DNA of 64,000 nt, taken from Lichenostomus cassidix (taxonomy: Eukaryota; Chordata; Aves; Passeriformes; Meliphagidae). Positions 8,904 to 56,822 of the stretch are shown here, in pieces. The notes under the pieces are model-generated. The model was given only the letters and a program-made list of their open reading frames with translations, searched no databases and was not told the origin of the DNA. The translations under genes were made by a program, and so were the position numbers. Every line of letters begins with the position of its first letter. Positions within the stretch are counted from its first letter, which is position 1. The stretch lies in contig CM039210.1 in NCBI GenBank assembly GCA_008360975.2, forward strand, positions 8,434,293 to 8,498,292, in the 5' to 3' direction.

Positions 8904-9795
8904 ATTAGACACCATGCCTACCTGCACAACTAAAAAGGAGCTGCAGCAGATCATGGGCACTCTGGGGTACTGGAGAAAGCATATTCCTGGGTTTTCTATA
9001 ATAGCAAGGCCCTTATATACGCTAATGAGAAAAAAATCAAGCCTGGGAAAGGGATGATGTTCACCAACAGGCTCTGCAAGCATTAATAGAGAAGCTAAAA
9101 ACTTACCAATCCCTTGGTCCAGTTCATCCCAGTGATCCCATAGTAGCTGAATGGGGTTTTGCTGAACATGGAACTTACTGTAACTTGTTTCAAAAGGGAC
9201 CTGTGGGGCTGAAACATCCTCTGGGATTCAGCTCCACAGCATTTAAAGACACTGAAAAAAGATATTCCCTCTGAGAGAAGGGACTTTTATCCCTTACCAG
9301 AGCTCTGAAACAAGTAGAAAAAATTCAACAGCAACAGCCTGTTAAGATTCAAGGACCCTTTAATTTGCTAGCTAGTGCCAGGAAAGGCTGTGCTCCGCCT
9401 GAGGGCATCGCACAAAGACCCGAAGTACACAAGTGGTTTGCATACCTTTCAGGAATCACAGACCAGATGGTTATCACTGAAGGGCCAACAAAGCCTACAA
9501 AATTGCATATTACTATCACTCCAGATGCACTGGCTTTACAACAGCCTTACAAGAGTAGCCCTATATCAGATGCCCCTGCGTTTACCCCAAATTCTGAGGT
9601 AAAATGTGTATGGTTTACTTATGCCTCAGCCAAACGTGTTGATGGTAAATGGAAATACAGAGCAGTGGCTCTGAATATTGAAAAAGGAGAGGAAGTGATA
9701 GAGAAAGGTTTAGGAAGTGCACAAGTGGGAGACTTAAAAGCTGTGTTACTGGCAGTAAAGGAAAAGGCAGAGAAAGTGTATGTGGATTCTTATGC
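8904..9795 (+). pseudogene. Element Z pol, RT thumb/connection and RNase H start
   Basis: Continues the protein cut at 669. It reads KKELQQIMGTLGYWRKHIP, the RT thumb region of ERV-L-like elements, then shifts frame near 9050 and continues through a connection domain with one TGA near 9272. The open stretch 9365-9795 covers the connection and the start of RNase H, ending at VDSYA where provirus B is inserted. The protein resumes at 19081 with VWAGATQW in the same frame. Confidence 0.8.
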
Positions 9796-10282
9796 TGTTG
9801 CAAAACCATGAATAAAGACTTTAGTAGTAGTCATGCTAAGGCTTGGAGGGATCAGTAGGCCTGAGTGTAAACAGTGTTGTGTAGCGAAGTTGCCAGTAGC
9901 GATCAAAAGGATCAATAGAGCATACTGATGAGGGTAGAAAGACTTGTCTAAGGAATGTAGCTATAGAACAGTTTGTTTATTTAAGTAATCTGCTAAGTGA
10001 AGTGTGTGATTTATCTAATAGGGTGTAGTAGATTAATGATGATAAAGAATGTTCAGTTAACAAAAAACAAAGTCACAATGTAATCATAAATCAGGTAGAT
10101 GTGTCTAGAAATCAAATTCATTGAGATGAAGCAATTTGGAAAGAAAACATATATATACTCAGTGATTTTGTAGCAGGTTGGGGCTCTGACTTTTGGACGC
10201 GAGTCCCAGGTCCCCAGGGCCCTCAATAAAGCACCGCACAAAATAACTTCGGTTGTTTTGTGTTTCCTCGGTTCGGGCAACA
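9796..10282 (+). repeat. 5' LTR of B
   Basis: 487 bp with inverted ends TGTTGC and GCAACA. A TATA-like ACATATATATACTC lies near 10147, and AATAAA near 10226 marks the R region. About seven substitutions separate it from 18590-19076. Confidence 0.95.
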
Positions 10283-10288
10283 GTTTTC

Positions 10289-10306
10289 TGGCGACCGCGG
10301 CAGGAC
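10289..10306 (+). other. Primer-binding site of B
   Basis: TGGCGACCGCGGCAGGAC, six bases after the LTR. tRNA not identified. Confidence 0.6.
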
Positions 10307-10464
10307 TCCGAAGGTGGCTGGGGCGGCTCACGTCCTGATCTACTCCACGCCGGCACCGGGTGATTCTCGGGGAGTCATCAGTTCGTGCCCGACCCCCGCG
10401 CCTGTCGGACAACTGCAGGAGGTAAGCCCGTAAGGTGCTTTATTTGTTTAATACTGGGTACCTG

Positions 10465-10560
10465 CCCATAAGACGAGGCGGCGAACCTCGCAGGGTTGGG
10501 TTATAGACGTCTTGGGGATGCCTAGGCGCTGACCATAAGACGAAGCGAAAGCTACGCAGG
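10465..10560 (+). other. Paired hairpins in the leader of B (candidate packaging signal)
   Basis: Two related units, at about 10465-10494 and 10532-10560, share CCATAAGACGARGCG and CGCAGG. The first folds CGAGG with CCTCG; the second can pair AGC with GCT around GAAA, a GNRA-type loop. They lie between the primer-binding site and gag, where gammaretroviral packaging hairpins sit. Role inferred from place and shape only. Confidence 0.45.
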
Positions 10561-10701
10561 TTCAGCACTTGCCCCTCACGGCGACGAGAAGTGGCAAGTT
10601 GGTTGGTTTGGTTGCTGTCCTCTTTCTATACTTGGTGCTGTTGATATCTGTATTCTCTGCATGTTACCTGTTATTCTCTGCATGTTACTTTCTGTTTTGC
10701 T

Positions 10702-12306
10702 ATGATGCCTTTTAAAACCTTTAAAGCATTGGTACAAGCTAATGGTAAAGTACCGGGGAACACCCCATTAGGATGCTTGCTGGGAAGATGGAAAAGTGCT
10801 GGGTTTTACCAAGACTTAAGCAAAGGAAAAATGATAGATTTTTGTAATCATGTGTGGCCTCTCTATGCTTCTGAGGGGGGACCGGAATGGCCTGTCAATG
10901 GTACTGTTGATGAGAACATAATTAATTCATTGATGTATTATCTAAGGGATAATGAGAAATGGGATGAGGTACCTTATTTGGATTTGTTCCGTTATTTGGG
11001 GTCTAAAACAGAATGGCAAAAGGAGTGTGGTATGCTATTGTTGCAAGCAGGGACTGATGAAAATGAATGTATTGGGTGCAAAGAGCGTGAAACCTGTGTG
11101 AAATGTGCAGTACGGTTTTCTAGTCAAGGTGAAGATTTATCTTTAATGGTTACCCCCCCTTGTCCTGTTCCCTCTGCTCCGCCGTGCAGAAGTAGGGAGG
11201 GAGACATAGATGATACTGATACTGATGAGGATGAGACTAATGAGGAAATTAATATACAATCCCCGGAAGGACTTGGAGTAAGTCATACCTCAGTCACCCT
11301 CCGTCCCCAAACTCCTTCCCCAAGCTCCCGAAGCATACAAAGAACCCCCATCGCGGCACGGACTAGACAGGGAAGGCGGAATCAAGAGGAACCCCGAATG
11401 ATAGCCCCCTTAAGGGAAGCCATGGGCCCCCGTGGTGAGAAAGTTATTATCAAAGTACCTTTTTCTCCAGGGGATTTGGTGATTTGGAAACAATCAGCTG
11501 GGAGTTATCGGGAGGACCCAGAATGGGTGGCCAGGGTGGTGAAGATGATAATTAAAACTCAGAATCCGGATTGGAATGATTTACAAGTGTTATTAGATAC
11601 ATTAATGGATTCTACAGAAAAAGAGATGGTCTTACGAGCAACCAAAGAACGAGCTAGGGAACAACTCCGGTTACGATTGATAATGGGGGAAACAATAGAT
11701 CAGTTGGTCCCTGGGGATGATCCAGAGTGGGATCCGAATGAGTTAGAAGGTTTACAGAGGTTAAAAAGGTATCAGGAATTATTGATTGAAGGCGTCCGGA
11801 CTGGGATGCCTAAAACCCTAAATTGGTCTAAGCTATACTCAATAAAACAAGAAAAGAATGAATCCCCTTCAGCATTTTTAGAGAGACTTAAAGAGGCAGC
11901 ACGGCGTTTCACTAGTTTGGATGTGGAGAAGGAAGAAGGTCAGTTACAATTGGCATTGTTGTTTATGAGACAGTCACAAGAGGATATTAGGAAAAAGTTG
12001 CAGAAATTAGAAGGGGAAGACACATGACGCTTAGATAAGCTGTTGGAGGTAGCTTGGAAAGTTTATAATAATAGAGAAAAGGAAACGGCTAAATGACAAC
12101 AAGCCGGAATTCTTGCAGTAATTCAGCAGTCTGCGGTTCGGGGGGGGTTAAGGGGCCGGGGAAGGGGAGGAAGGGGAATTGGACAGGGAAGGGGAGGATT
12201 CGCTCGGGGGAGAGGAGGATTTTTAGTCGCAGGGATGAGCCAGGGTAGACAGGAACAGTTGGGTCCTAATCAGTGTGCATTTTGTCGTCAATTCGGACAC
12301 TGGTAG
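10702..12306 (+). pseudogene. gag: gag of B
   Basis: Structural polyprotein that would assemble the particle under the plasma membrane. The ATG at 10702 opens 441 codons. MMPF lacks the Gly2 needed for myristoylation. Residues 1-130 look like matrix; residues 157-160 are PSAP, a late-domain motif known to recruit ESCRT; capsid follows from about 230, with a major-homology-like stretch near 383-402. A TGA at 12025 ends the frame, but the same frame continues through a second TGA (12094) into an R/G-rich segment and a single CCHC knuckle at 12274-12315 whose last spacer holds a TAG (12304). Both TGA codons are one C-to-T change from CGA. No separate gag terminator is seen before protease, which is in the same frame. 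Confidence 0.85.
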
Positions 12307-15300
12307 AATGAATGTCCGATAAGAAACGGGATTGGGATGAGTAATGTAGGGTTGATGGGAGGTTTCCCCGTACCGCCGGTAGATGGCGCCCAGACACAAG
12401 CACAGGCAATGATGTTAGGAAACTATAAGAATCAAAACAGACTAGACCGGGATCTGAAGGTGATAATAGAAATAGGCGGACAGGAGCAGGAATTTATGGT
12501 TGATACAGGGGCTACTCACTCAGTTTTAAATAAACGGTTGGGACCCATAAGTGACACAACTATACAGGTAATAGGAGCTACAGGACAATTGGAGGAAAGG
12601 CCTTTTCTACAACCCCTTAATTTAAAATTCGGAGGAAAGGAACTGGATCATCAGTTTTTGTATATGCCAAACTGCCCTCAGCCTCTGTTTGGATGGGATT
12701 TGCTGTCTCTATTAAATGCTAAAATTATATTTGAACAGGGTCGAGTTAAATTGGAAATTCCGGATGAAGAAATCGGGAAAATATTTGCAATAAAGGAAAT
12801 GGACCCGGCACCGATCCCAACAGAGATTGAACATGCAGTGGTACCCTGGGTTTGGGAGGCGGGAACTCCGGGAAAATCAAAGGTTGCCCAGCCGGTGGTA
12901 GTTGAGCTAAAAGAAGGAGCTAAACCAGTTAGGATAAAACAGTATCCCATTAAAGCAGAGGCTCGGCAGGGAGTAGCTCCGCTGATAGCACAGTTTACAG
13001 TGCAAGGATTATTAAAGGAATGTGAATCAGAGTATAATACTCCTATATTCCCGGTGAAGAAACCAAATGGTAAGTATAGATTAGTTCAAGATTTAAGGGC
13101 TATAAACGAGATAGTTAAAGACATTCACCCAGTGGTTGCCAACCCTTACACATTGTTAACATCTGTATCGGAACGATTTAAATGGTTCACTGTGATTGAT
13201 TTAAAGGATGCCTTCTTCTGCATCCCACTGGCAATAGAGAGCATGAAGTATTTTGCCTTTGAATGGGAAGAACCAATGACAGGAAGGAAGAAACAGCTCA
13301 CCTGGACCAGACTGCCTCAAGGATTCAAAAACAGCCCTACCATCTTTGGTAATCAATTGGCAAAGGAATTAGAAGAATGGAAAATGACTCAGGTGAGAGA
13401 ATCTCCATATTCTTATGTAGTATTGCAGTATGTAGATGATATTCTTTTGGCCACAGAAGATAAGAAGGTATGCCTCCGATTAACTGTTGCATTATTGAAT
13501 ATGTTGGGGCAAGCAGGATACAAGGTATCCAAGGAAAAAGTACAACTGGTCAGAGAAAGCGTCCTGTACCTAGGATGTGAGCTAACACAAGGCCTCAGAC
13601 GTTTGGGGGTTAATAGAATTGAAGCTATATGCTCCATTCTACTCCCTAGAAATCACCAGGAGTTAAGATCCTTTCTGGGAATGGTTGGATGGTGCAGGCT
13701 ATGGATTCCGAATTTCGGCCTGATAGCAAAACCCCTATATGAGGCTCTAAAAGAATCCCAATTGAAATGGAATACAAACAGGGAGAAGGAGTTCCAGGAT
13801 TTGAAACAAGCATTAAAAGAAGTCCCAGCCTTGGGGTTGCCAGATTTAAACAAAGACTTTCAATTATATGTGAATGAAAGGCAGAAACTAGCATTGGGAG
13901 TTCTAACCCAGAAGTTGGGATCCTGGAAGAGGCCTGTGGGATATTTCTCCAAACAACTGGACACTGTAAGTACCGGTTGGCCGTCATGCTTGCGGGCCGT
14001 TGCGGCTACGGTACTTCTCATTCAGGAAGCCAGGAAACTTACCATGGGAAAAAGAATGACGGTGTATGTTCCCCAGATGGTACTAGCTGTCTTGGAGCAA
14101 AAGGGGGGTCATTGGCTATCTTCCAGTAGAATGCTGCAGTATCAAGCTATTCTAAGAGAACAAGATGACATAGAACTCCAAACGACTAATCATATTAATC
14201 CAGCAGAGTTCCTCCACAGTGAGATGGAAGAACATGAGCTCTCCCATGACTGTGTGGAAGTGATTGAACAAGTTTATTCGAGCCGACCGGATTTGAAGGA
14301 TGAACCCCTGGATGCTCCAGACTGGGAATTATTTACCGATGGTTCCAGTTTTATGGAAAACGGTACCAGGTATGCGGGATATTCAGTGGTTACAGTTACT
14401 CGAGTTGTGGAGGAACAAGCCTTGCCACCAGGTATGTCAGCCCAAAAGGCTGAGATCATTGGACTCACTCGAGCCTTGATATTGAGCACTGAGAAAACGG
14501 TAAATATTTGGACTGATTCCAAGTATGCCTTTGGTGTGGTGCATGTTCACGGAGCACTATGGAAAGAAAGAGGACTTCTTAATTCCCAAGGGGCTGTAAT
14601 AAAACATCGCACAGAAGTGTTAGCATTGTTGGATGCTGTACACCGACCAGAGCAAGTGGCCATTATGCATGTCTAGGGACATCGGAATGAAGAAGGAAAA
14701 ATCTACCAAGGTAATCATTTAGCAGATGTAACTGCAAAGCAGGCAGCTCGTCAAGTATGGACTCAGATGGCTCTCATACCAACTAAGGTAAACCCTGTTA
14801 CACCTTATATGCAACAAGCTCCAAAGTATTCACAGGATGATGAGAAACTAGCCATGTTATTGAAAGCTCGGAAAGGAGCAACAGGATGGTACATAACCAA
14901 TACAGGACAAGTAGTTGTTCCCATACAGATAATGAAGGCCATCCTCATAGCTGAACATAACAAAAGTCATTGGGGAGCAGAAGCATTGGTACAATTTTTG
15001 AAGAATGAAATAATTTCCAATCAGATGTTAACGTTGGCAAAACGGGTGAATGCAATGTGCCCAGTTTGTTTAAAGAATAATCCTATTGTCAGGAAACAGA
15101 TTCAGATGGGAAAATTACAAGTAGGACCAGAACCGGGAGATTATTGGCAGGTGGATTTTTCAGAATTACCCAAAGCACAAGGGTATAAATATATCCTGGT
15201 GTATGTGTGTACCTTTTCAGGGTGGCCAGACGCCTTTCCGTGTAGGACTAATCAGGCAAAAGAAGTAGTGAGAACTCTCTTGAAAGAGATAATACCTAGA

Positions 15301-15960
15301 TTTGGAGTACCTTTGGGGTTGTCATCAGATAGGGGTCCTCACTTCATTGCTAATATTGTGCAGGATGTAGCACGGATGTTAGATATTGCTTGGAATCTCC
15401 ATACTCCTTGGAGACCGCAATCTAGTGGGCAAGTAGAAAGAATGAATCAAACTTTAAAGGGCCAAATTAAGAAAATCTGTCAAGAAGCCAAATTACAATG
15501 GCCTCAGGCTTTGCCACTTGCTCTCCTCCGAATTAGAATCAAGCCAAGGGAAAGATTAGGCGTGAGCCCCTATGAGATACTATATGGAAAACCTTACCAT
15601 GCAACTATTTTAAAAGGAGACCCGCATGTGGTAGGGGATCAGGCAGTATATAATTATGTTGTTTCTCTGCATAGAGTTCTCAGTGCCTTGTGTGGAGCCC
15701 TGCAGTGGAACAGACCTCTTCCACTGGAAAACCCTGTGCATGATGTTCAACCAGGAGACCAAGTATATGTGAAGAACTGGTTCACAGACCCACTGAGAGA
15801 ATCATGGGACGGCCCGTATCAGGTGATACTAACAACATTCACAGCAATCAAAGTGGCCGGAATCGACTCCTGGATACATTACACGCGAGTCAAGAAGATG
15901 CCAACTCAGTGGGAATCCCAAGTCGTGTCCCCCACGCGATTGATTTTACGAGCAAAATGA
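12307..15960 (+). pseudogene. pol: pol of B (protease, RT, RNase H, integrase)
   Basis: Enzymatic polyprotein, same frame as gag. Protease active site DTGA is at 12502-12513; RT boxes include LPQGFKNSPT and YVDD (13429-13440); RNase H begins with FTDGSS near 14333 and keeps WTDSKYA. A TAG at 14674-14676 interrupts RNase H; the frame resumes at once (GHRNEEGKIYQGNHLAD). Integrase keeps the zinc-binding CPVC, the catalytic WQVDF and SSDRGPHF aspartates and the glutamate in GQVERMN, then a C-terminal domain. Pol ends at 15960, overlapping the env ATG by four bases. With the one stop codon reverted it would be a full gammaretroviral pol; as present it makes no RNase H end or integrase. Confidence 0.9.
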
Positions 15961-18536
15961 AAATTGTAATTGCTGTATTTCTGGTTATGCTAAAAATATT
16001 ACCCGTTGATGAACATGTACTTGTCACTGTTTCAGATCCTGTAATCGGAGCAATGGAAGGAATGACTGTAAACTTGACTTGTGAAATCACTGATGACCAG
16101 GGAGCTGGAGTCGATGAGATAAGTACATATTGGAGCAAAGAGCAAACACTCACTAATGTTATCAATAGTACATTTTGGGATAAGGACACACAAAGAGGTA
16201 ATACCACATTACAACTTACCAATGTTAGCATGGAAAGTGCTGGGATATATACATGTCTGGTAAAAATTAGGTGGAGTTTTGATTATAAACGAATCGCACT
16301 AGGGGTTATGACATGGCAAAGCAACTTGGCAATAAAAGTCTCACCTTACCAAGCATCAATTGACATGTGGGATGGTCCACCCTCAAAAATAAATTGCTCA
16401 TTCACAGCCCAACATGAATGTAGCAGCATGTTCACGGTTACTTGGTGGAAATTAGCTAGACAGATAATGTGGGAAAGGCCGGAAGGAAAGAGTGACCTGC
16501 AGGCAGGAAGCAATAGTGGAATTGGATGGTTAAATGATACTCAGGCACGTGTAGGGAAAAATGAGGGATTATATCTCTGTGTGATAAGCTGTGGTTCTAT
16601 GATGGGGTACGGGAAGAGAGAAGTACAAGGAAAAAGTCATCTAATGGATGGGTTAAGACCTACCCATGGGATTTACCAGGCGGTCCGTGGTACTTCTGTA
16701 GTTTTAGTTTGCCAACCAGAGCGTGGAATTGTTTTCTCTGAATTTGGATAGTGGTTTAAGAAAGGAAATGTCCAGGAAGGGGGGAAATACCAATTAGAGA
16801 AGCGATTAGGAGGCATGTTAACTTTAGTGATACAGGATGTTCAACCAGAGGATGAAGGGACATATTGGTGTTGGATTGCCCAAGATGCATGGTGGACACA
16901 CGCTGTGACTTTGGTATCCCTTACTAGGGCACGAATAAATAAAAGAAGAATTAGAGATGTTGAAATTGGAAATAAAACCTGGGTTTTTCACCATAACCCA
17001 GAACAAGAAAACTTAATTGTAGGTTTAATTCGAGACTTTGGAGAAATGCAGAATGTTTCTAAAATCACTGCTTGTTTACCTCTGCCTCGAGCAGCGGGAG
17101 AACCAATTCCATGGGGAATAGTTCCCGTCACTGATTTGCCTGAGGCATATGTAAATGTAACTTGGAGCTGTAGATTGGTTCCTAATGAGTACTATGACTG
17201 GAAAGAGGGTTGTATGTTGGTCCGGAGGGTTACTGAACACCAATGCAGGCAGATGCCAGGATACTATGCATGGCTGACAACATCAAGAGGTAATAAGTGT
17301 GTTGTTTCAGGGCCTGTTTCAGAACCGTGTAACAAAGTGACTCTCAAGGAACAAAAGGTTAGAGAGGAAGAAGTCTGTCAAAATGTTACCCAGACCCAGT
17401 CTTTAGAAGACGAATGGGGAACAATTTGGGGACCAAGCCTTTTAGAAACATATAGCTACTTAGGACAAGTTAATTGGTGCATACAATGGACAGGAAGTAA
17501 AAACCAGACTTACACTGAGGTAATGAACCTCCAGACTACCAGACGGGAGAAGAGGGACCAAAAAGACATTTGGAATTGTACCCAAGTAATCACATGTGAC
17601 ACACCAAAAGATAAAATAGGGCTCGTACCAGTAAGAGTCTTGCTAAAATGGGGATGTGAATGTCGAGGATACAACCATACAATTACAGACCAAATTCAAG
17701 GAGATAAAAATGGGAAGAGAAACATCAATTGTAAATCTACTACTATCAGAAGTCCAGGAAACCTAGTTTGGGTTATGGGGCATGGAAAGTGGACCACCCA
17801 TATGCCAATAGATGGGCCTGTCACACAAATTACTTTAGGAATTCCGACCTTATGTCCGTTTTGGAAACAGTCTAATTTGACTCGACAATCAGCTAAGACT
17901 AAACGAGACTTGGATGATGAAAACGAATGGCATGAGCCAACCAGTGGAGTTAAATTCGGGTGGGCTTTGGAATCCTTGTTTGCACCTGTAGCTTCATATC
18001 GGAACAGGGATATGCTCTACAAACTAATGGGGCAGACTGAAAGATTGGCAGCAGCCACCAAGAAAGGATTTAAAGATTTCAATATTCAGTTACAGGCTAC
18101 CACAAGAATGACATTACAAAATAGAATGGCTCTTGACATGCTCCTATTGAAGGAACATGGAGTGTGTGGATATTTGAGCCAGAAAATTGATCATTGTTGC
18201 ATCCATATCCCAAATGTAACTATTGATGTGGAAAAGGACATTTCACAATTAGAACAAATAGAAGACAAAACAAAAGATCTCGAAAGGGAAGCAGAACATA
18301 ATTGGATTGGAGAAGTGTTTAGCTCTTTAGGAATCCAGGTATCTGGATGGATATCATCGGTGATTCAGTATGCGATAATGTTTTTGATTTTGATTCTAAT
18401 TATCTTTGGAGTCTATAAATGTATTTTAGGAACCATTGGAAGGGAGCGCCTACATACCCGAAGGCTGATCAATGCAATGACCAGGAATGCAACGTCTTCC
18501 ACACCTCCTCCAGCATATAGAGAAGAAAGACTTTGA
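15957..18536 (+). pseudogene. env: env of B with three N-terminal Ig-like domains
   Basis: ATG at 15957 overlaps the pol stop (ATGA). Frame runs 859 codons with one TAG at codon 265 (16749-16751). Signal peptide about 1-22. Three Ig-like modules follow: C42/W59/C100 with SAGIYTC, C147/W163/C208 with EGLYLC, and C252/W266/C305 with DEGTYWC. The stop lies inside the third. A basic KRR then leads to a surface core rich in Cys and N-glycosylation sites, a TKRD cleavage-like site, a fusion-peptide-like stretch, LQNRMALDML, a Cys cluster ending in CC (nine residues between first C and CC, not the usual six), a membrane anchor near residue 815 and a tail with PPAY. The TM half resembles class I ERV envelopes; the Ig part is unusual and suggests capture from a host receptor. 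Confidence 0.85.
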
Positions 18537-18576
18537 GATTTGAGCATCCTTGCAACTTGGAAATTGAAGAATGCTC

Positions 18577-18589
18577 AAAAGGGGGGACT
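18577..18589 (+). other. Polypurine tract of B
   Basis: AAAAGGGGGGACT-type tract immediately before the 3' LTR. Confidence 0.8.
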
Positions 18590-19076
18590 TGTTGCAAAAC
18601 CATGAATAAAGACTTTAGTAGTAGTCATGCTAAGGCTTGGAGGGATCAGTAGGCCTGAGTGTAAACAGTGTTGTGTAGCGAAGTTGCCAGTAGCGATCAA
18701 AAGGATCAATAGAGCATACTGATGAGGGTAGAAAGACTTATCTAAGGAATGTAGCTATAGAACAGTTTGTTTATTTAAGTAATCTGCTAAGTGGAGTGTG
18801 TGACTTATCTAATAGGGTGTAGTAGATTAATGATGATAAAGAATGTTCAGTTAACGAAAAACAAAGTCACAATGTAATCATAAATCAGGTAGATGTGTCT
18901 AGAAATCAAATTCGTTGAGATGAAGCAATTTGGAAAGAAAACATATATATACTCAGTGATTTTGTAGCAGGTTGGGGCTCTGACTTTTGGACGCGAGTCC
19001 CAGGTCCCCAGGGCCCTCAATAAAGCACCGCATAAAATAACTTCGGTTGTTTTGTGTTTCCTCAGTTCGGGCAACA
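18590..19076 (+). repeat. 3' LTR of B
   Basis: 487 bp, TGTTGC...GCAACA, about seven differences from the 5' LTR (near 1.4 percent), followed by the ATGC TSD. Confidence 0.95.
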
Positions 19077-19080
19077 ATGC

Positions 19081-19932
19081 TGTGTGGGCTGGGGCCACAC
19101 AGTGGTTGTGTCAGTGGCAAGCATTGAATTGGCAAGTGAATGGAAAAGCAGTTTGGCAGAAAGAGGATTGGGAGTGGCTATTAACAGAAGCTCAGAATTG
19201 GAAAATCCAAATAGGCTGGGTTAAAGCGCATTCAAATGACCAAACATTGCATTCATTCTGTGACAACAAAGTAGATCAGCTAACAAAAATAAAAAAGATA
19301 AAAAGTGATGAATTAGAGGACCCACAACACTGGTACAGATTAGCAGAATTTTTACATTGTAAGTTAGAACACACAGGCATAAGCACACTCTTTTTTGCAG
19401 CACAAAGTAGAGGATAGCCAATAACCAGAACAATGTGCAAAGACATTCTCACACAGTGTCCACAATGCCACCTGAGGCTCAAACAAAATCACCCAGATCA
19501 AACACCACCCTTACACATCAAAGATAATAAGGCACTTTGGTCAACCTGGCAAATAGATTATATTGGACCTTTAAAAACATCTAATGGTTATAAGTACTTA
19601 CTAACAGGGGTTGAAGTTGTATCTGGGCTATTAAAAGCCACAAAAAACAGACAGGCTAACACAGAAGCCACTATCTCAGGACTCAGCGAGTGGTTTTCTA
19701 GCCTTCCTATCCCAGACTTTATACAGAGTGACAATGGATCACATTTTACCAGCACAGCAGTACAAGATTGGGCCAGGAAGGAAGGTATCCAATCAATTTT
19801 CCACATACCTTATTATCCACAGGCAAACGGGATGGTGGAATGGGCCAATGGTTTGCTAAAATGTTTCCTCAAACCACAGAATTCTAACTGGGACAGACAG
19901 TTAGTTATCTTATGCACTGTACCAGATAAATA
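19081..19932 (+). pseudogene. Element Z pol, RNase H end and integrase core
   Basis: Resumes the Z protein after B: RNase H tail (VKAHSNDQ, DNKVDQLTK), then, after a TAG at 19415, integrase in the same frame with zinc-binding CPQC, catalytic WQIDYI and QSDNGSHF, and a degraded glutamate box (NGMVEWANG, where a VERxN-type sequence is usual). Ends at a stop near 19931; a further shifted piece (GVMGSPVSQAF) reads up to the solo LTR at 19985. Confidence 0.8.
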
Positions 19933-19984
19933 ATAGATATGGGGTGATGGGTAGCCCAGTTTCACAAGCTTTTTTGAGCCCTAT

Positions 19985-20472
19985 TGTTGCCCGAACCGAG
20001 GAAACATAAAACAACCGAAGTTATTTTATGCGGTGCTTTATTGAGGGCCCTGGGGACCTGAGGACTAATGTCCAAAGTCAGAGCCTCCCCCGCTACAAAA
20101 TCACTGAGTATATATATGTTTTCTTTCCAAATTGCTTCATCTCAATGAATTTGATTTCTAGACACATCTACCTGATTTATGATTACATTGTGACTTTGTT
20201 TTTCGTTAACTGAACATTCTTTATCATCATTAATCTACTACACCCTATTAGATAAGTCACACACTTCACTTAGCAGATCACTTAAATAAACAAACTGTTC
20301 TATAGCTACACATTCCTTAGACAAGTCTTTCTACCCTCATCAGTATGCTCTATTGATCCTTTGGATTGCTACTGGCAACTTCGCTACACAACACTGTTTA
20401 CACTCAGGCCTACTGATCCCTCCAAGCCTTAGCATGACTACTACTAAAGTCTTTATTCATGGTTTTGCAACA
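19985..20472 (-). mobile_element. Solo LTR of the B family, inverted, in Z integrase
   Basis: 488 bp, reverse complement of the B LTR (starts TGTTGCCCGAACC, ends GGTTTTGCAACA). CTAT at 19981-19984 and 20473-20476 is the 4-bp TSD. A solo LTR is what remains after recombination between the two LTRs of a provirus, so B's family inserted at least twice in this one old pol gene. Confidence 0.95.
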
Positions 20473-20785: not shown

Positions 20786-21655
20786 CGTGTTGGGAACTGA
20801 AGGCCAAAGAGAGAATAACTACTCTCAGGAAAACTTGTTTATCACTGTTTAAATTCTGCTGTTTTAGTTTTGTTAATAACCTTAAATATTTAACAATATC
20901 CTCACCAGATCAAAGACTAAGTGTGTACTCCGGACGTGAAACAAGAAACGCTTAAGCAGACGGAGAAAGAACTGTTTGCTATTTTGGGCGATATATATAT
21001 GTGTGTTTAGCTATGATTAGTTTTCATATATTTTGTAGTATATAAGTTGTTTAGCTCCTTGTTCTGTTCTCTCTTGTGTCTAATTGTCCTAGGTTGCAAT
21101 ATAGATGTATTTAAGTATTCTATTACCACCAGCTGTGGGCTGTTAGCTGCTATCACCTGCTAATGACCCACTCTGGATGACAGACAATGGGCCATCAGGG
21201 ACCCACCACATGACTCATGGACTTATCTCATCCCATTGTGGGATGCTCTGCCCAGGAGGGAGGAGCCAGGTGTTCCCACCTGGATATAACCTGGCCTTGG
21301 AAATGCCTGAGCTAGCCCTGTCTACTGGGTTCCCAGAGGACAAGAGCTACCACTGGACCTTCAGCTGGAGACCAGACCTTCACAGGATCACCGCTTGAAC
21401 TGAACTACCTCAGTTGGACTGCTACCACCACCCTAACAGGGTGTCAGGTTGTATCTGACCTTGTCAGTGCTTTTCCTTGTATTATTTCACTTATTTTTAC
21501 TTTCAATCTTGACTTGTGATCTCCCACTGGTTTGTTTTCAAGCCAATACACTAATAAATGGTAATCCATTTTATATCAGCCATCATTATAAGAACTTGCA
21601 CACGAGACTGGGTTTCTGGGGTGCTGGTTGCTCTAAATAGGTTAACTGCCAGTTG
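20786..21655 (+). repeat. LTR C, interrupted by a solo LTR
   Basis: Contains TATATAAG near 21040 and, on the far side of the insertion at 21085-21550, AATAAA near 21554 followed by a U5-like segment. The same sequence occurs inverted at 60036-60256. The left end (TGTTGGGAACTG at about 20786) and right end (near GTTGTCA, about 21655) are approximate, and no TSD was found. Confidence 0.5.
21085..21550 (+). mobile_element. Solo LTR inserted in LTR C
   Basis: 466 bp, TGTCCTAGG...CCAATACA, flanked by CTAAT at 21080-21084 and 21551-21555. The inverted relative at 60110-60150 reads straight across the site, confirming the insertion. A 5-bp TSD fits an ERV-L or similar element. Orientation not established; + is assumed. 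Confidence 0.85.
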
Positions 21656-21711
21656 TCACAGGCGTAGGCAACCAGTAAAAAATCTATCAACCCTGTCTCC
21701 AGTCATAACAG
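21645..21711 (+). pseudogene. Integrase-like scrap joined to LTR C
   Basis: About 65 bases match the segment next to the gammaretroviral integrase of element I (60030-59985, inverted). In both places it directly abuts the same LTR. Here it is cut off by the start of element E at about 21712. Confidence 0.4.
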
Positions 21712-22895
21712 TCCCTAGTGGAGGAACAGCTTGCCAAGGGTCACATTGTACCAACTAATAGCCCTTGAAACTCCCCTGTCTTTGTCATCCGGAAACCTGG
21801 AACAGACAAGTGGAGGCTCCTCCAAGACCTCAGCAAGATCAATGAGGTCATTGAGGATATGGGTCCCCTGCAGCCTGGCATGCCCTTGCTCTCAATGCTC
21901 CTCAAGCTGTGGAAGCTTGCCGTCATAGACATTAAAGACTGCTTCTTCACAATCCCCCTACACCCACATGACGTCCCCCTGTTTGCCTTCTCAGTGCCAT
22001 CCCTGAACCAGCAAGCCCTCCAGTGCAGGTACCACTGGTGCTTGCTACCCCAGGGAACGAAAAAATTCTCCGACCATCTGCCAGTGGAACATGGCCTGTG
22101 TCCTGTCCCCTGTCTGCAAAGAGTTCGCGGGTTGTATAATTCTTCACTACATGGACTATGTGTTAATCTGTGCACCAGATGATAAGTACCTGAATGTGAC
22201 TCTAGAAAAAACTATTCAAGCCATTGAAAAGGCAGTGTTTGAGATACAGCAGGAAAAGGTTCAGCGCACCTGCCTGTGGACTTACCTGGGACTCTGCATC
22301 AGTGAACAGACCATCGTACCCCAGCAGCTCACCATCAGGGACAACCTTAGGACCCTCCGGGACTTGCACCAGCTGTGTGATTCTATCAACTGGCTTCATC
22401 CTCTGCTGGGGGTTATGACGGAAGACCTCGTGCCACTGTTTAACCTCCTGAAAGGCTGCGAGGACCTGGACTCACCCCGAGTCATCACAGAGGAGGCCCG
22501 GGAGTCCATTGCTAAGGTACAGGTTGCCCTGTCACCAAGCCCATTGGACAAATCCTGAGTTACCCTTCAATTTCATCATTCTGGGTAAGTCACCCATGTT
22601 ACATGGGCTGATTTTTCAATGGGCCACAGCGCAAAAAACCCCACTTCTTATAATACAGTGGATCTACTTATTGCATCAGCCGTTCAAAACCATAACCATG
22701 CCGCAAGAACAGATAGCCCAACTAGTTATGAAAGCCAGAGCACACCTCCGTACCCTTGTGGGGCATGATTTCACCTGCATCTATTTGCCATTGGCCAATA
22801 ATACTCTAGAACACATACTCCAATCAAAAGAACACCACCAGTTCGCTCTGGACAGTTATCCAGGCAAGGTTTCAATTCACCATCCAAAACATAAA
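21712..22895 (+). pseudogene. pol of E, RT part
   Basis: Reads the RT from [12 protein letters not shown] through [13 protein letters not shown] and HWCLLPQGT to the thumb, matching G pol with several frameshifts (for example near 22080 and 22510). A TGA replaces a Trp codon at about 21770, the same codon that is TAG in G. The catalytic box reads YMDY (near 22151-22162) instead of YMDD, which removes an essential metal-binding aspartate. Interrupted at 22902 by a solo LTR. Confidence 0.85.
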
Positions 22896-22901
22896 TTGTT
22901 T

Positions 22902-23256
22902 TAAAGAGAAACGACAAGAGGGATCTCACGGCACTCTCAATATGAGATATAAAGTAAGCTCCATTTTATTTCACCAAACGAGAAACTTATATACTGTTAC
23001 AGATGTTTCTAATTATAGATACACACACCTGCAGTCTGCTCTCACACATTCAGGGATCCTCCTGTTAACTCCCTTATTCTTTTCTCATAACACTCCTGAC
23101 TCCTAATCTTTCTCATGGCATTCTTCCCACAGAACATTCTCAGGCAAACAAACCACTGTAGCTTGTTGGAATTTTACTGAAGCCTGACCATGCTGAAGCT
23201 TTGCTCAGGCCTGCTCAGTTAGCATGAGTTTTGCTGGAAAACTGCGTTTTCCAACA
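22902..23256 (-). mobile_element. Solo LTR of the F/H family in E pol
   Basis: 355 bp, begins TAAAGAGAAACG and ends GTTTTCCAACA, so it is inverted (LTR 5' end TGTTGGAAAACGC). Flanked by TTGTTT (22896-22901) and TTGTTC (23257-23262), a 6-bp TSD with one change. Removing it restores E pol between HKL and FNSAFHLAP. Matches the LTRs of F and H. Confidence 0.95.
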
Positions 23257-23262
23257 TTGTTC

Positions 23263-24660
23263 AATTCGGCTTTTCATTTGGCCCCAAAAGAACTCCAAAG
23301 TCGAACCCCTCTCAAGGCTCTAACAGTCTTTTCAGACAGCTCTGGGAGATCCCTAAAGTCAGTCATGACTTGGAAGGATCCCAGGATGAAGATGTGGGAG
23401 TCTGACGTCCAGGTGGTAGAGGGTTCCCCACACATTGCGGAGTTAGCAGCCGTTGTTAGAGCTTTCAAGAGGTTCGAAGAACCTATTAATGTGGTAACAG
23501 ATTCAGCTTATGTAGCTGGAGTAATTGCCAGAGCAGAACACGCTTGGTTAAAGGACATGTCCAACCCTAAATTGTATAAACTACTCTCAAAACTTGTTTT
23601 TCTACTCTCCCACAGAAGGCAGCCATTCCATGTGATGCATGTGAGGTCAGACACCGATCTCCCTGGGCCAATTGCCAAAGTAATTGGAGGGCAGACGCTC
23701 TTGCCATGCCAGTACAAGCTCTCAACATACCGGACGCTTTTGCTCAGGCAAAGCTAAGCCATCAATTTTACCATCAAAATGTACCAGCCCTCATGAGGAT
23801 GTTTAAACTGCCTTGAAACCAGGCAAGGGAAATTGTAGTGACCTGTGCTAACTGTCAGACCTACCGAGTGCCATCACTGGGGTCCGGGGTTAACCCCCGA
23901 GGTCTAGGTACCTGCGAAATATGGCAGACAGATGTAACCCATGTTCCCCAATTTGGAAGATTAAAATATGTACACGTCTCCATGGATACATTTTCTGGAG
24001 CTGTTTTTGCATCCGCCCATGCAGGAGAAAAGGCAAGAGATGTTATGAAGCACTTTTTCCTTGCTTTTTCTACCCTGGGCGTTCCTGCTGAAATAAAAAC
24101 CGATTATGGTCCAGCATACATCTCTAACAGACTTCAAGAATTTTTTAGCTTGTGGGGTATAAAACATACTATAAGCATTCCCCACTCCCCCACAGGCCAA
24201 TCTATAGTGAGAGGATCCATCAAACAATTAAGAGGGTCCTAGACCAACAATGGGGAAGGTCAGAGGTCAATCCTCCCATTTTGAGACTCTGTAAGGCCCT
24301 CTTTACAGTACATTTCTTGAACAATTTGTTCGATGAGCCAACCCCTCCATGTTCTGGCATTTTAGTAATTCGACTCAAGCCAAATTAAAAGAACAACCAC
24401 CAGTGTTAATCAAAGATCCAGAAAGCCATCAAATATCAGGCCCTTTTTCACTAATTGTATGGGGGAGGGGATACGCTTGTGTTTCCACACCTTCAGGACC
24501 CAAGTGGGTACCAGGAAAATATGTAAAGCCCTACCTCAGACCGTCGGTGACAGCTCTTGAGCAGACAAAAGATGACACCCCGGCCACTGATAAAGAAACC
24601 CCAGACAAGGAGACCTGTGCCGCTTGGAGAAGACGTCGGCACAAGATACCAGCCACGTGA
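23263..24660 (+). pseudogene. pol of E, RNase H and integrase
   Basis: RNase H with FSDSSGRS (G of the usual DGS lost), IAELAAVVRAF and VTDSAYVAG; then integrase with HQNVPALMRMF, CANCQ, WQTDVTHVP and KTDYGPAYIS (Asn-to-Tyr change next to the catalytic Asp). Frameshifts occur near 23690, 23810 and 24200. The C-terminal domain (IVWGRGYACVSTPSGP) ends PAT-stop at 24660, the same end as G pol. Confidence 0.85.
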
Positions 24661-24879
24661 ACATCTTATTATGCTGCCTTCAAGCAGTTCCCCAAACCCA
24701 CAAATCCCTTATCTCTTACCCTCATGTGTTTCCCTAACCCACAACTCCCTTACCTGTGTGTTATAAGAAAAAGGGGGGGATGAGAGGGGGAAAAGAAAAA
24801 AGTAATAGAGAACCATCTTTTAATAATCTTTGCTTGAAATCCCACAGAAAAAAAGACTACCCATACCTTTCTTACCACC

Positions 24880-25626
24880 ATGCCTGTAATTGCCTACCTC
24901 TGCATTCTCCTGCCCTCCTGGATCATGTTAGCATCAGAGGTCGCTGCGTGGATTGTCCTGCAGCCAAAAGCCAATATGTGGGTCACACTGGCAAAAGCAC
25001 TCCAGCAAGACCATATGTGCCTGTCTATGGGCAGCGTCAGTGACCCACTTTCGTCGTGCCTGGTGGGGATTCCTCTCTGTGAAGACGAACCGCCTTTCGC
25101 AAACCAGGTGCCCTACCAGGAGGACACTTGGGAGAAATGGGTAAACACACTGGTGACAGCACTGGAGGAACCCCACGAGTTGCTACTACTGGGGTCCTCC
25201 TGGGCTACCCATTGCCTCAAGTTTGTCTTCAGCCTGAAACGGGGGATGGCCTTATCCTGGTCAGAACACCATAAATTGAGTCATAGTACAATCGAGACAC
25301 CTTGAGAACAGGTTTACTCCATCAGTAATTGGTGCCAGGATGATAATCTCATCCTGGCAGAGTCATCCATGTGCCCCAAAGCGCTGCCTGCAGGTGTGTT
25401 GCTGATTTGCGGGAATCAGGCGTGGTCTGGAATCCCATCCCAGTTCCAGGGGGGACCATGCACTCTCGGCAGGCTTTCTGTACTAGCACCCAACAAGACC
25501 CAAATTCTATATCGGAGAAACCATACTCAATTGGCCCGCCAAAAGGGAAGAATACAGCAATTAGACCCAAATTGTGATAGCAAAATTATTAATTGGTCAT
25601 TGTCTAAAATGATCGCTGCACCATTT
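24880..25626 (+). pseudogene. env of E, signal peptide and SU
   Basis: Starts with the signal peptide MPVIAYLCILLPSW, as in G. The SU is short and reads through several small frame changes (a TGA near 25303, another shift near 25370) to NWSLSKMIAAPF at the SU/TM boundary, where an LTR is inserted. Close match to G env. Confidence 0.8.
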
Positions 25627-26252
25627 TGTTGCGGTTTAGAGGATGTTACAGCAGACTTTACCCTGGAGCTTCTCTACCCAGCCCGGTTCAGCGCCTCAGT
25701 GCTCCAAACCCTCTGTCCCAGGGCTGCACACTGCACTCTCACCGGCCGGGGAGCCATAAGACTAGCTCTGGTTCGTCTGCTTCCACAACCGGCGGTGATA
25801 ATGGAGGCGAGGAGGGTCTATACGTTGTGTCCATGGAAGATGTTTATTCGCATGGTGCAGCAGAGGCCAACGACCTCCCCGAGGCAGAGATGCCTCGAGG
25901 GCGAAGGCCTCACATGCACAGCCACATGTGGAGCATAAACACACGTGGAGCATAGACGGCAAGATGGCGGAGGGTAAGGGGTTTTATAGGGAAACAGAGA
26001 GGGGCAGGGACAGCACACTGGCCCAGTGACCTCTGGGTACAGGGGAGGTACAGGGGCGGAGTTAGGAGTACAGGAACCAATAGGGGAAACCCAAGGGAGT
26101 GGCCCACGTGGGGTTAGGGTATAGGAACCAATAGGGAAAACTGGGGGCGTGGCTAGGACTACGTGGAGTAGGGAAGGCAGGACAATAGGTGACAAGTACA
26201 GTCGTTAAGAAAGGGGTGTGGGGAACTTGCAGCTATTATCACAATAGCATTT
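25627..26252 (-). mobile_element. LTR inserted in env of E
   Basis: About 625 bp splits the fusion-peptide region; CATTT flanks both sides (25622-25626 and near 26253-26257). Reading the minus strand shows two CCAAT-box motifs (CCTATTGGTTCC), CTATAAAACCCC and GCGAATAAACATC in promoter-to-poly(A) order, ending CCGCAACA. The exact start is uncertain. Family not recognised. Confidence 0.7.
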
Positions 26253-26750
26253 CTCCAGCCTGGAGTGGCGGCAGCAAAAGCCTTGGGTGAACTTACCCAC
26301 CTTGAGTGCTGGCTAGGAAAGCATGCTAACATTACCTTGAGTGCCCTCTCTCAACTACTTGAGGATGAAGAAACCACCAGGCACACAACGCTGCAAAATA
26401 GAGTGGCCATCAACTTTCCTTTATTGGCCCATGGACATGGCTGTGAGGAATTTGAAGGTCTGTGTTGTTTTAACCTGTCATCTCATAGCCAGAGCATCCA
26501 CGTGACGATACAAAAAATGAAGGATCAAATCAAAGAACTAAAGCAAAGAACTAAAGATGGAAGGAGATGCAGACTGGCTTGAAGACCTTTTTGGACAATG
26601 GGGACTTAAAGGATGGTTGACATCCTTGGTCAAAGCTGGACTGTGGGTGATTCTAATAATTTTTATTGTTCTAAGCTTGTTTGGTTGCCTTAAGAAGTGC
26701 CTAGCTAAGCAGATGGGAGAGGCTTTTCCTTTAAACAGAGAAGGGGGAGA
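26253..26750 (+). pseudogene. env of E, TM subunit
   Basis: Fusion-peptide-like GVAAAKALGEL, LQNRVAINFPLLAHGHGC with a CX6CC motif (CEEFEGLCC), a helix, then a frameshift near 26570 and a membrane anchor (VILIIFIVLSLFGC). The sequence resembles alpharetrovirus TM. The polypurine tract AACAGAGAAGGGGGAGA ends at 26750. Confidence 0.85.
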
Positions 26751-27280
26751 TGTTGCACTGGATGAGACCACCTTGGGGGCTGCCGGGGAGCTGAGGGGTC
26801 CCAGGGCAGCAGAAACACGGTGTTGGGACAGCTCCGATGTTTGAAGTTACCCCCCTGAGTATTGGATGTTTTCTCCCTAGACTATGATAATCTTCCTATG
26901 TTGGTTGGCCTTGACCTGGTCCCTCACTCCACCCCTCTCTTCTCCCCATTGGTCGTTGTATCCCCCCGCCTTCTCCCCGCCCCTGTGCCCTCAGACTATT
27001 GGCCCAATATCTCTATATCAATGGTGACTCAGGGTCATTCACCCTCTTTCACTGCTGGACACTTTCGGGAATAAACCATTCTTCGGAACTCCAAGCGATT
27101 GAGCCCTTTGAATTCTTTGTCTCTGGTAAAACGCATGAGCTATCCAAAGCTCCCTGGGTGAGTGTGTGATGTGCCTCCCACCAGCACGGGTGAGAGAAGC
27201 TGTACTGGCCGGAGTGATCTCTCGGAGCCTTAGAGATGCTTTCAGTAAATGCAGAGGCCTATTCCACTCCACACCCCCCC
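26751..27280 (+). repeat. 3' LTR of E
   Basis: Starts TGTTGCACTGGATGAG right after the polypurine tract; AATAAA near 27071; ends about 27280 in a C run. Diverged relative of the G LTRs. No partner LTR is present because E is truncated. Confidence 0.8.
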
Positions 27281-40543: not shown

Positions 40544-40903
40544 TAAAGAGAAACGAACGAGAGGGAACTCACAGGCAGTCTCAATATGCGATATAAAGTA
40601 AGCTCCCTTTTATTTCACCAAACGAGAGACTTATATACTGTTACAGAAGTTTCTATTCATAGATACACACACACACCTGCAGCTGTTCTCACACATTCAG
40701 GGATCTTCCTGCTAACTCCCTTATTCTTTTCTCATAACACTCCTGACTCCTAATCTTTCTCATGGCATTCTTCCCACAGAACATTCTCAGGCAAACAAAC
40801 CACTGCAGCTTGTTGGAATTTTACTGAGGCCTGACAATACTGAAGCTTTGCTCAGCCCTGCTCAGTTAGCATGAGTTTTGCTGGAAAACTGCGTTTTCCA
40901 ACA
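40544..40903 (-). repeat. 3' LTR of F
   Basis: 360 bp, begins TAAAGAGAAACG, ends TTTTCCAACA. On the minus strand it is preceded by the polypurine tract GAAACGGGAGAAC. AATAAA (minus strand) near 40612. Confidence 0.95.
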
Positions 40904-42200
40904 GTTCTCCCGTTTCGCTTGTGAGAACAGACGTTGTCTGTTATCAGATTAATTCGCTTTGCTATAAGTAATTCTCATTATTAGAATTGTTATAAGTTTA
41001 CCTAAGGAAATTTCATTAGTTATTTAGATATGTTGCCATGGTCTAGAAATTGTCATTGCTGAAAACATTCACTTCACAGGTAAAGCTTAGAGAACCTTTC
41101 CCGGGTAAGGACTCTAAGTTTACTTGGAAGAAGGTTTAGCTTTTATAAACTCAATTTGGTAAATGAAAATTAATTGATCACATTTTGATGCAGAATACTT
41201 TGAGACTCATGGCATGTTTCCCAGCCAGTTAGAACCAAAGCTTGGCCAGAGCTTAGGTGCTAAGTGGAAGGGTTTTCTTAGAACATCTTATAAACAAGCT
41301 TTGATTAATATCAATAAGGAGAGTGTCTTAACATGTTACCATTTTTGTAGATAGCTATATAAGGTAAGATGAAATATTTGAAAACAATAGATATTATTAC
41401 TTGACTTTAACTAAGAAAATAAAACTGCAAAGCTTTTGTGAATAATAATACAAACTAACAAATTTAAAACTTAAATTAATATCACTAAAAATGAATAAAA
41501 CTTAATCTTAATAAATCTTATTTTAAACTAACAAATTGGACTTAACTATAATGGAATTTAAAATTGATATCACTTTAACAACTTAACTCTAACAAGATTT
41601 AAAACTTAACAGAATTTAAAATTAACATCACTTAATATTACTCAACAGAATTTTAACTTTAACAGAACTTACAACTTAATAGAATTTAAATTCACTATTA
41701 CTTAACTTTAACAGAATCTATGCTTAACTAAAGATACTTAACAGGTAATTTAAACTATTCAGTATGACTTCACTCACAGGTTTTCATTCACACCTTAAAA
41801 CTCTCAAGAAATCAAAATCACTCTCTCATCAATCAGGCTTCATTTACACATTAAAGCATTCAACACACTCTCAGTAGGCCTACAATATTCACACATACAC
41901 ACAAATGCTTTAGTAAAATTCAATTTTTGTTCAAAGCTTTTAGTATTCAAGGTGTTATTTTTTATCAGGATAATATCTTATTACAATGCTTCTTTATTAG
42001 TAAATTGCTGGAAATAGGTTTTGGCCTGTTGGTCAATACGTGGCAATGGATGTTTCACCCTGCAAAGCGAATAATTAGAGGTTTTGGAGAGAATCTGCAG
42101 CTCCGATTCGGGTATCAGAGTGCTGTTTCTGCTGGCAACGCTGTTGGTTAGTTCTGGTTCGCTGCTGAAGCTGTCAATCATTTCCTCATCCTTGGGGAGG
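40904..42200 (-). other. Noncoding 3' interior of F, AT-rich repeat-like
   Basis: No open frame of interest. 41440-41760 is a degenerate array of TTAACAGAATTTAAA-type units. H (53881-55545) and K (39262-40250) carry the same module. 42005-42160 corresponds to the part of H that holds two extra host-like inserts. Confidence 0.7.
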
Positions 42201-42208
42201 AGTAGAGT

Positions 42209-43066
42209 TTAGAGTTTCACCACAGACGTCACAGTTGGGGCAGTAAAGAGGCGTGGATGGCTCGCGGCTCCGCCCACCAGGGTACCCTCTGGGACTTCCG
42301 CTCTGGTTGTCATTTGGCCGGAAGCCACGGTTGGAACAACTTCCGCCACAAGTCTCCTTTGTGTGGCGTGCCGCAGGGTAGGGGCCGCCGCTGCTCCTGG
42401 GTCACTGGTCACTTTCTGTTTGTTCTTTTTGTTTCTGCAAGCTTCTGTACTGTGAGTATCTTTGTTGCAGCAGGAACACCAAACTCTTTCATTACAATTC
42501 TTCCGCATGTGTCTCTCACTCCTGCATCGGTAACATCGGGATGATTTCTGGTTACTCTGTTTCTTTACCCGCAATATCGGAGCTCGTTCTAACAGGAACA
42601 GATTTTTCATCCAATCGAGTAACTTTGTATTCTCGGCTACCAGCAGCGGCACCGTGCGCCCTCTCTCCCCCCCCCTCCCTGGCGGGGGGGGTTTCCCTGG
42701 CTGCGCGGCTGCCGAAGTTCCCCGCATAGCAAAACCAGCAGAGTAACTCATAGGTTTCTCTCTGCTCCATGCAGCTGTTATGTCCTGTGCCGTGAGCCAC
42801 GCAAGGTTTTGCTCCGTGGCGTGTATTTGTAAGCAGGCTACAACTTTACTCCATGGTTTGCTAAGCTTTCTTGCTATTTTATCACAGTTCAAAAGCAAAA
42901 CAGCTCCGTAATTCAGCCACTCTCCCACACTGAATACTGTAATAGGATTTGTAAAAAATCCATAAGCTTGTCCTACTGCCATCAGGCCAGCCAAATGTAA
43001 CAGGCTACTGAGTTTGTGCTTTTCTAAAAAGCATAACAATAAAATTTGGGCTACCTCTGATTCCAT
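42209..43066 (-). CDS. gag: Mini-gag of F
   Basis: 285 intact codons. The N-terminal 110 residues (FLEKHKLSSLLHLAGLM, WSKVVACLQIHATEQ) look like a matrix-type helical domain. A Pro/Gly-rich linker follows, and the C-terminus has two CCHC knuckles with correct spacing (CYRCRSERHMRKNC and CSCCNKDTHSTEAC) and Lys-rich flanks. Most of a capsid is absent; H retains about 40 extra residues here (QYITELGNFTTKN onward). It could bind element RNA and join particles of a helper. Similarity to a named gag family is not recognised. Confidence 0.75.
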   Translation of the reverse strand: MESEVAQILLLCFLEKHKLSSLLHLAGLMAVGQAYGFFTNPITVFSVGEWLNYGAVLLLNCDKIARKLSKPWSKVVACLQIHATEQNLAWLTAQDITAAWSREKPMSYSAGFAMRGTSAAAQPGKPPPPGRGGERGRTVPLLVAENTKLLDWMKNLFLLERAPILRVKKQSNQKSSRCYRCRSERHMRKNCNERVWCSCCNKDTHSTEACRNKKNKQKVTSDPGAAAAPTLRHATQRRLVAEVVPTVASGQMTTRAEVPEGTLVGGAASHPRLFTAPTVTSVVKL

Positions 43067-43381
43067 TTTTGGTCCAGCTGGTTTTCGGGGTCCTGGTCAA
43101 CACCGTCTAAGCACTGTATTGAAGCTCGCAAGTTGCCAGAGTTTGTTTTTCAGGGTCCTGGTCAACACCGTCTAAGCACTTTATTGAAGCTCGCTAGTTG
43201 CCAGAGTTTGTGCAGCTTTTCCGAGTATTAGCCCATCCGGAAGCGGGTCTTTTTCAGCCCAGGCTTTCATAGCCCCCCGGCGCTGCTCTGGGGCCTCTCC
43301 GGTCTCGTCGCTCTCTGGGCAGGGTCGTAAAATCCATTGTCAGGGTTCGTAGTCGTCGGTTCTAAATCCTGCTAGCTCCGT

Positions 43382-43399
43382 ATCACGTCGGGGTCACCA
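43382..43399 (-). other. Primer-binding site of F (tRNA-Trp type)
   Basis: Minus strand TGGTGACCCCGACGTGAT, two bases from the LTR. This is the tRNA-Trp site known from avian leukosis/sarcoma viruses. Confidence 0.9.
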
Positions 43400-43401
43400 T
43401 T

Positions 43402-43761: not shown

Positions 43762-43767
43762 GTGCAG

Positions 43768-54990: not shown

Positions 54991-54996
54991 TTTGGT

Positions 54997-56820: not shown

Positions 56821-56822
56821 TT

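Follow-up and report, generated by a model that had tools for sequence, protein, structure and literature searches.

Provirus and Envelope Gene

The 64-kb window of the Lichenostomus cassidix genome considered here (the whole stretch of 64,000 nucleotides) contains, at 9796–19076, a provirus with long terminal repeats (LTRs) and gag, pol, integrase, and env genes (Table 1). The subject of this report is the env gene, whose product (Env) almost certainly joins a signal peptide and up to three immunoglobulin (Ig) domains, together called the head, to a linker with an RXXR motif and to gamma-type surface (SU) and transmembrane (TM) subunits, as read from its sequence. The provirus has the features of a class I (gammaretrovirus-like) endogenous retrovirus (ERV), namely a reverse transcriptase (RT) nearest to those of murine leukemia virus (MLV) and XMRV (xenotropic MLV-related virus), a Gag_p30 domain, an MLV-type integrase C-terminus, and a 4-bp target duplication (ATGC, read by eye) flanking both ends. 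The best PDB chain for the RT is 4hkq_A, an RT/RNase H p80 (4.1e-183) that we take to be from XMRV. The LTR pair differs at 7 positions in 487 bp (98.6% identity), and the gag, pol, and env frames are each interrupted, making this copy defective; it is a gammaretrovirus-like provirus of birds, young but broken.

The env ATG (15957–15959) overlaps the pol stop codon (15958–15960), and cysteine pairs lie at Env residues 42/100, 147/208, and 252/305, with spacings of 58, 61, and 53 residues and the motifs SAGIYTC, EGLYLC, and DEGTYWC; on the overlap, the spacings, and the motifs an initial annotation, made from the letters of the window, was accurate. Its statement that the Ig part and SU-TM share one frame stands in that SU-TM continues in the same frame to 18536, but it overlooked an in-frame TAG within Ig domain 3 (16749–16751), which makes the window frame discontinuous and is straddled by the third cysteine pair. 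The stop was found in the window copy alone (1 of 37 host-genome copies read). It divides env into piece 1 (15957–16748, 264 residues) and piece 2 (16752–18533), which served as separate queries.

The TM part of piece 2 matches the Pfam model TLV_coat just above its cut-off (23.0 bits against 22.5; E 3.9e-5). Across 13 env rows, CX9CC occurs in the TM of 12, the window and an Ig-less emu sequence included, in place of CX6CC, and P0009 has neither; CXC is present in the SU of all 13 and CXXC in none.

Table 1. Provirus features by position in the 64-kb window.
Feature	Positions	Strand	Evidence
5' LTR	9796..10282	+	487 bp, TGTTGC...GCAACA; 98.6% identical to 3' LTR
gag frame, interrupted	10702..12027	+	Gag_p30 3.9e-34
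pol frame: protease, RT, RNase H	12337..14676	+	RVP, RVT_1, RNase_H
Integrase frame, stop overlapping env ATG	14767..15960	+	rve, MLVIN_C
env start and signal peptide (approximate)	15957..16016	+	Helix predicted at residues 2-13; ATG in 35/35 readable copies
Ig domain 1 (Ig1), V/B7-like	16017..16310	+	
Ig domain 2 (Ig2), having a second Cys pair	16332..16628	+	Strands within 126-224, conserved Cys; no Pfam match above cut-off
Ig domain 3 (Ig3), first part as far as stop	16650..16748	+	Alignment with relatives
In-frame stop TAG within Ig3	16749..16751	+	Private to window copy, 1/37 copies
Ig3, second part	16752..16922	+	V-set 6.6e-6, residues 5-43 of piece 2
RRIR (RXXR) between head and SU, possible site for a proprotein convertase	16944..16955	+	RXXR in 37/37 own copies, window included
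SU core, begins ENLIVGLIRDF	17007..17894	+	Start conserved among relatives
KTKR, SU/TM cleavage site	17895..17906	+	RXKR here in many relatives
TM: immunosuppressive-type stretch, CX9CC (18165-18200), membrane span, tail	17907..18536	+	TLV_coat 3.9e-5
3' LTR	18590..19076	+	LTR pair comparison, flanking duplication

Evidence for the Ig Folds

Over Ig1, piece 1 matches the Pfam models ig (1.4e-9; 38.6 bits, cut-off 21.8), Ig_3 (2.8e-9), and V-set (1.6e-6), and the start of piece 2, corresponding to the second half of Ig3, matches V-set above the Pfam cut-off. Ig2 alone does not reach a Pfam cut-off (best 0.019) and is backed by its predicted fold and by alignment to relatives. AlphaFold prediction from piece 1 and 19 relatives gave two Ig-type sandwiches, at residues 21–118 and 126–224, with a mean predicted local distance difference test score (pLDDT) of 83 for the piece. 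For P0001, a database relative from Pipra filicauda, the model contains three Ig domains (about residues 70–168, 178–279, and 291–374; block pLDDT 78–95), followed at residues 377–429 by a region of pLDDT below 50, which would be a loose linker, and then by SU. The P0001 model is weak as a whole (mean pLDDT 66.7, predicted template modeling score 0.42), with SU-TM badly predicted and the Ig part well. The Ig folds and Ig-family profile signals expected by the initial annotation were therefore recovered, except that Ig2 stays below cut-off. Probabilities from hhalign between head domains were 93% for Ig1–Ig3, 77% for Ig1–Ig2, and 26% for Ig2–Ig3, so a simple triplication of Ig domains is not shown.

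MLV-type receptor-binding domains (RBDs) are themselves β sandwiches and are described as having Ig-like folds, which raises the thought that the Ig appearance is that of an ordinary gammaretroviral RBD, or is due to chance. The Pfam scores and predicted folds rule this out: canonical Ig motifs exceed the Pfam cut-offs, the models show separate Ig domains, and the SU common to Ig-less relatives comes after the Ig domains, leaving such an explanation a negligible probability. Nor are the segments the ordinary SU of a known ERV family, as Ig-less relatives carry the same SU core without them.

Relatives and the Search for a Donor

A protein search with piece 2 returned 50 proteins among 7996 scored candidates, and the named hosts are birds except for two weak matches, P0048 (pipefish) and P0049 (an Aeromonas bin). 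The Env relatives in the database come from passerines, a mousebird, and a parrot, and have three, two, one, or no Ig domains ahead of one SU-TM. Counted by eye, in models some of which may have dropped domains through false introns, three Ig domains are present in seven of the 50 (P0003, P0024, and P0035 begin inside Ig1), two in six, one in eight, a broken one in two, and none, with the N-terminus present, in five; the remaining 22 are without an N-terminus, appear to be chimeric models, or are the three weak matches. In the Ig-less relatives only a signal peptide and a short segment precede the same SU core. In the SU-TM tree, all eight rows with two or three Ig domains and six of the seven with one fall into a single clade (99/100), Ig-less passerine rows form a separate clade (100/99), and a kakapo row with one Ig domain lies outside both, in a position the tree does not settle. 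P0020 and P0063 look chimeric, with the pol of another ERV or part of a C-type lectin joined to ERV pieces; neither was included in any tree, although P0020 is among the 32 rows used for the linker motif below. P0055, P0067, and P0069 have no SU part and were classed as env heads by similarity alone.

The initial annotation called the head receptor-derived, a description that found no backing: no close host donor was found in two protein searches, which reach just relatives with short exact shared words and similar length, nor when the host genome was searched in all six frames, where matches outside the proviral heads were weak. A PDB profile search with the head returned generic Ig proteins. 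For Ig1, the top-ranked solved fold among the families listed in the VIA-align rows, which cover residues 18–217, is of the B7 family, with similarity to PD-L2, tied within about 1 Z with KIT and others; B7 ligands (PD-L2, PD-L1, B7-H6, CD276) are also among the best profile matches of the Ig1 part, at 20–26% identity. By profile and predicted fold, Ig1 would thus be most B7/PD-L-like; the ligands differ from it in their low identity, the Ig1 rows tie with other Ig proteins, and the comparison covers Ig1 alone.

Copies and Selection in the Host Genome

Searching the 1.10-Gb host genome with piece 1 gave 48 head matches, some of them parts of one copy and most 95–99% identical, and 11 of these lie inside a 930-codon open frame (full Env length plus its upstream open codons) spanning head, SU, and TM. 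Proteins of other birds have the same order. The Ig part is thus the true N-terminus of Env, as first proposed, and the 48 matches and the relatives in other birds rule out a private fusion or an assembly artefact. Thirty-six matches are on the 24.1-Mb contig that carries the window and 12 in the remaining 1.08 Gb; this contig could be an ERV-rich W chromosome.

Thirty-seven of the 48 matches were read as copies, the other 11 being partial, split, or close to a contig end. All 35 copies that are readable at 15957 have the ATG there. Other relatives have an ATG 16 codons upstream, and a private loss of that start in the window was considered and rejected, with no ATG there in any of the 35. Ratios of nonsynonymous to synonymous polymorphism (pN/pS) in 22 stop-free copies, a set from which 15 of the 37 were dropped and which includes some copies whose frame break the alignment hides, were 0.31 (0.16–0.60) for the head, 0.26 (0.13–0.53) for SU, and 0.29 (0.14–0.71) for TM. 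The values in all 37 were 0.33, 0.49, and 0.61, respectively, the higher SU and TM ratios being attributed to the inclusion of frame-broken and incomplete copies. Because the head ratio is close to those of SU and TM, the head was held under similar constraint while the family spread; the comparison across copies, which the initial annotation had put forward, shows the head to be under purifying selection much as SU and TM are.

Shortly past the head, one frame break recurs in eight of ten copies examined (L003, L005, L010, L014, L019, L023, L032, and L035), of which eight were picked as genome searches pointed to the break and two as controls. Copies with the shared break keep the head and linker as an open frame, and on this sequence pattern a defective form with an open Ig head is taken to have itself multiplied. 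The host genome also has env matches at 37–54% identity to SU-TM; four were inspected, and Ig domains are absent in all three with a readable N-terminus (L040, L041, and L043).

Around the provirus, an RNase H-like frame cut at the 5' LTR (9365–9811) apparently resumes past the 3' LTR (19052–19933) and is followed by an integrase-like frame (read by eye), and the provirus seems to be inserted inside another ERV. One more LTR of the provirus's own family (about 96% identity) lies on the minus strand at 19985–20472. Long inverted and direct repeats (21572–26826 / 45813–49933; 40544–43906 / 53526–57122) are probably further ERV copies.

A Candidate Cleavage Motif between Head and SU

Of 32 rows, the window included, 26 have RXXR within the 45 residues ahead of the SU core, compared with a mean of 11.0 and a maximum of 20 in 2000 shuffles. 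The looser [RK]XXR or KRR is present in 30 of the 32 (shuffle mean 16.6, maximum 24) and the strong RX[KR]R in nine (mean 2.1, maximum 8); the rows are related to each other and hence are not independent trials. All 37 own-genome copies have RXXR, and database rows keep it where Ig domains are missing. Eight cysteines are found in every three-Ig head whose N-terminus is complete (four heads), an even number that fits pairing within domains and, with the RXXR motif, suggests that a furin-type protease could separate the head from SU. Two observations weigh against this proposal: most linker sites are of the weaker motif form, and the three Ig-less host-genome copies (L040, L041, and L043) lack RXXR and have RTKE or RTKG instead. 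Overall, we consider furin-type cleavage of the linker reasonably likely, judging by motif and cysteine count.

Avipoxvirus Homologs of the Head

Outside these Envs, the only close relatives of the three-Ig head among the protein matches found are avipoxvirus proteins. A three-Ig head profile collected 14 proteins, comprising eight from avipoxviruses (240–384 residues) and six env heads or ERV gene models, and a pox-led profile collected 17, comprising 11 pox proteins (P0065 is counted as pox by similarity only), five env heads, and, at 4.1e-3, a single Ig protein that is unrelated. The eight avipoxvirus proteins are 38–50% identical to P0001 over nearly the whole head, and the members include SWPV1-183, SWPV2-155, CRPV-108, and proteins of Mudlarkpox, Albatrosspox, Finch pox, and Cheloniid pox 1. 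Homology extends over the three Ig domains, the conserved cysteines (of eight pox proteins counted, four have eight and four have nine), and the leader. The pox proteins differ in standing alone, without SU or TM, and those reaching Ig3 stop soon after it, where RXXR lies in env. A structural search of BFVD ranked SWPV1-183 first at 4.0e-25, with the next match at 2.8e-11; scans of viral contigs gave no match. In the available text of PMC8151833 these genes carry only the label 'Ig-like domain protein.'

In the head tree, which carries a long-branch warning, all 12 pox rows group together (100/99) within the env heads, adjoining those of Pipra, Manacus, and Myiozetetes (98/97). Forcing pox outside the env heads gave an approximately unbiased (AU) test p of 0.0197 with 31 rows and 0.0526 with 23, and the nesting of the pox proteins may be regarded as moderately supported. 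The 18-residue leader ahead of the hydrophobic core also matches columnwise between env and pox, a match equaled in 0 of 5000 permutations by BLOSUM and 1 of 5000 by identity, for six retroviral and eight pox rows that were chosen by eye once the sequences had been seen, include two identical pox leaders, and leave out P0016, P0014, and four of the 12 pox rows.

Retrovirus and poxvirus might instead each have captured the module from one host gene of the Ig superfamily (IgSF), now lost or unsampled, with no transfer between the viruses. The AU p of 0.053 in the smaller set of 23 rows and the lack of a known donor leave room for such a history, whereas the pox nesting, the matching leaders ahead of the signal peptide, and the results of a host-genome search with the pox head speak against it: among 98 scored candidates, proviral heads matched at E of about 1e-12 or better, and elsewhere the best matches were at E 0.0146 and higher. 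We consider separate captures unlikely and transfer from retrovirus to poxvirus probable, as the direction that the sequences favor. SWPV2 alone contributes ORF074 and ORF155 to the match lists, which makes a single avipoxvirus capture from a retrovirus, followed by duplication, the simplest reading of the sequences. The pox homologs and the linker motif are the candidate points that go beyond the initial annotation.

Proposed Function of the Head

We hypothesize that an Ig module captured from an IgSF gene was set ahead of an Ig-less SU and that a cellular furin-type protease cuts the linker. The head would then be weakly attached to SU or shed, since all eight of its cysteines can pair within domains, and the free head may bind a bird cell-surface or immune receptor as a decoy or modulator. 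Avipoxviruses would have acquired the head unit from such a retrovirus and would retain it in secreted form. On balance, the explanation we favor is an Ig module that was captured, is released from Env to act on immune or adhesion receptors, and later passed to avipoxviruses. That a soluble modulator is the head's main role is put forward more tentatively, at slightly under even chances, and the fullest version, in which the Env precursor also yields a soluble product, cut from its N-terminus, that is a B7-like, three-Ig modulator of immunity or adhesion and was stolen ready-made by avipoxviruses, more tentatively still. The independent existence of the head in poxviruses is the strongest hint of a function without SU-TM.

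The head could alternatively stay on the virion as an RBD that sets tropism, with linker cleavage merely priming it. Ig modules often bind cell-surface proteins, the head is outermost in the sequence order of Env, and selection constrains it about as much as SU and TM. However, the number of Ig domains varies from three to one and Ig-less relatives have a homologous SU, RXXR and an even cysteine number would free the head, and in avipoxviruses the module occurs with neither SU nor TM; such a role is possible but rather improbable. Less probable again, and indeed doubtful, is a head that caps or chaperones SU in transit until the convertase removes it, in the manner of alphavirus E3 or flavivirus prM. 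The position of the head before a basic cleavage motif fits this idea, but Ig-less relatives manage without a head and a chaperone for SU would be useless to a poxvirus.

Comparison with Known Systems and Implications

The family shares with gamma-type Envs (MLV, reticuloendotheliosis virus, and syncytins) a TLV_coat TM, a basic SU/TM site, the overlap with pol, and a similar immunosuppressive stretch, and differs from them in its N-terminal Ig array, CX9CC in place of CX6CC, and CXC without CXXC in SU. No Ig array is mentioned in the available part of a review on Envs of the gamma type, which does not use the term 'Ig-like' (PMC9967133), and no description of an Ig-headed Env was found in the literature searched, which is weak evidence from an incomplete search. 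According to the accessible portion of PMC4299795, the crocodile ERV CrocERV31 likewise captured a three-Ig IgSF protein, nectin3; there nectin3 replaces env, whereas the present family fuses its Ig array to a complete Env.

Foamy virus Env is organized as leader-SU-TM, with a convertase site between the N-terminal piece and SU. Compared by description, the two share a site in this position, of which the present family has only the motif, and they differ in that the foamy virus leader is a short membrane-spanning peptide and the head is an ectodomain of Ig folds.

Retroviral Envs are viewed as SU plus TM, and this bird lineage adds an Ig head in three, two, one, or no copies, with a possible built-in cleavage motif, providing a natural experiment on domain gain by an entry protein. 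Transfer to avipoxviruses, if true, would explain where a pox gene family with no annotation beyond 'Ig-like domain protein' came from and would mean that a gene had moved from a host into a retrovirus and on into a poxvirus. Any bird receptor bound by the head would show whether both viruses share a target.
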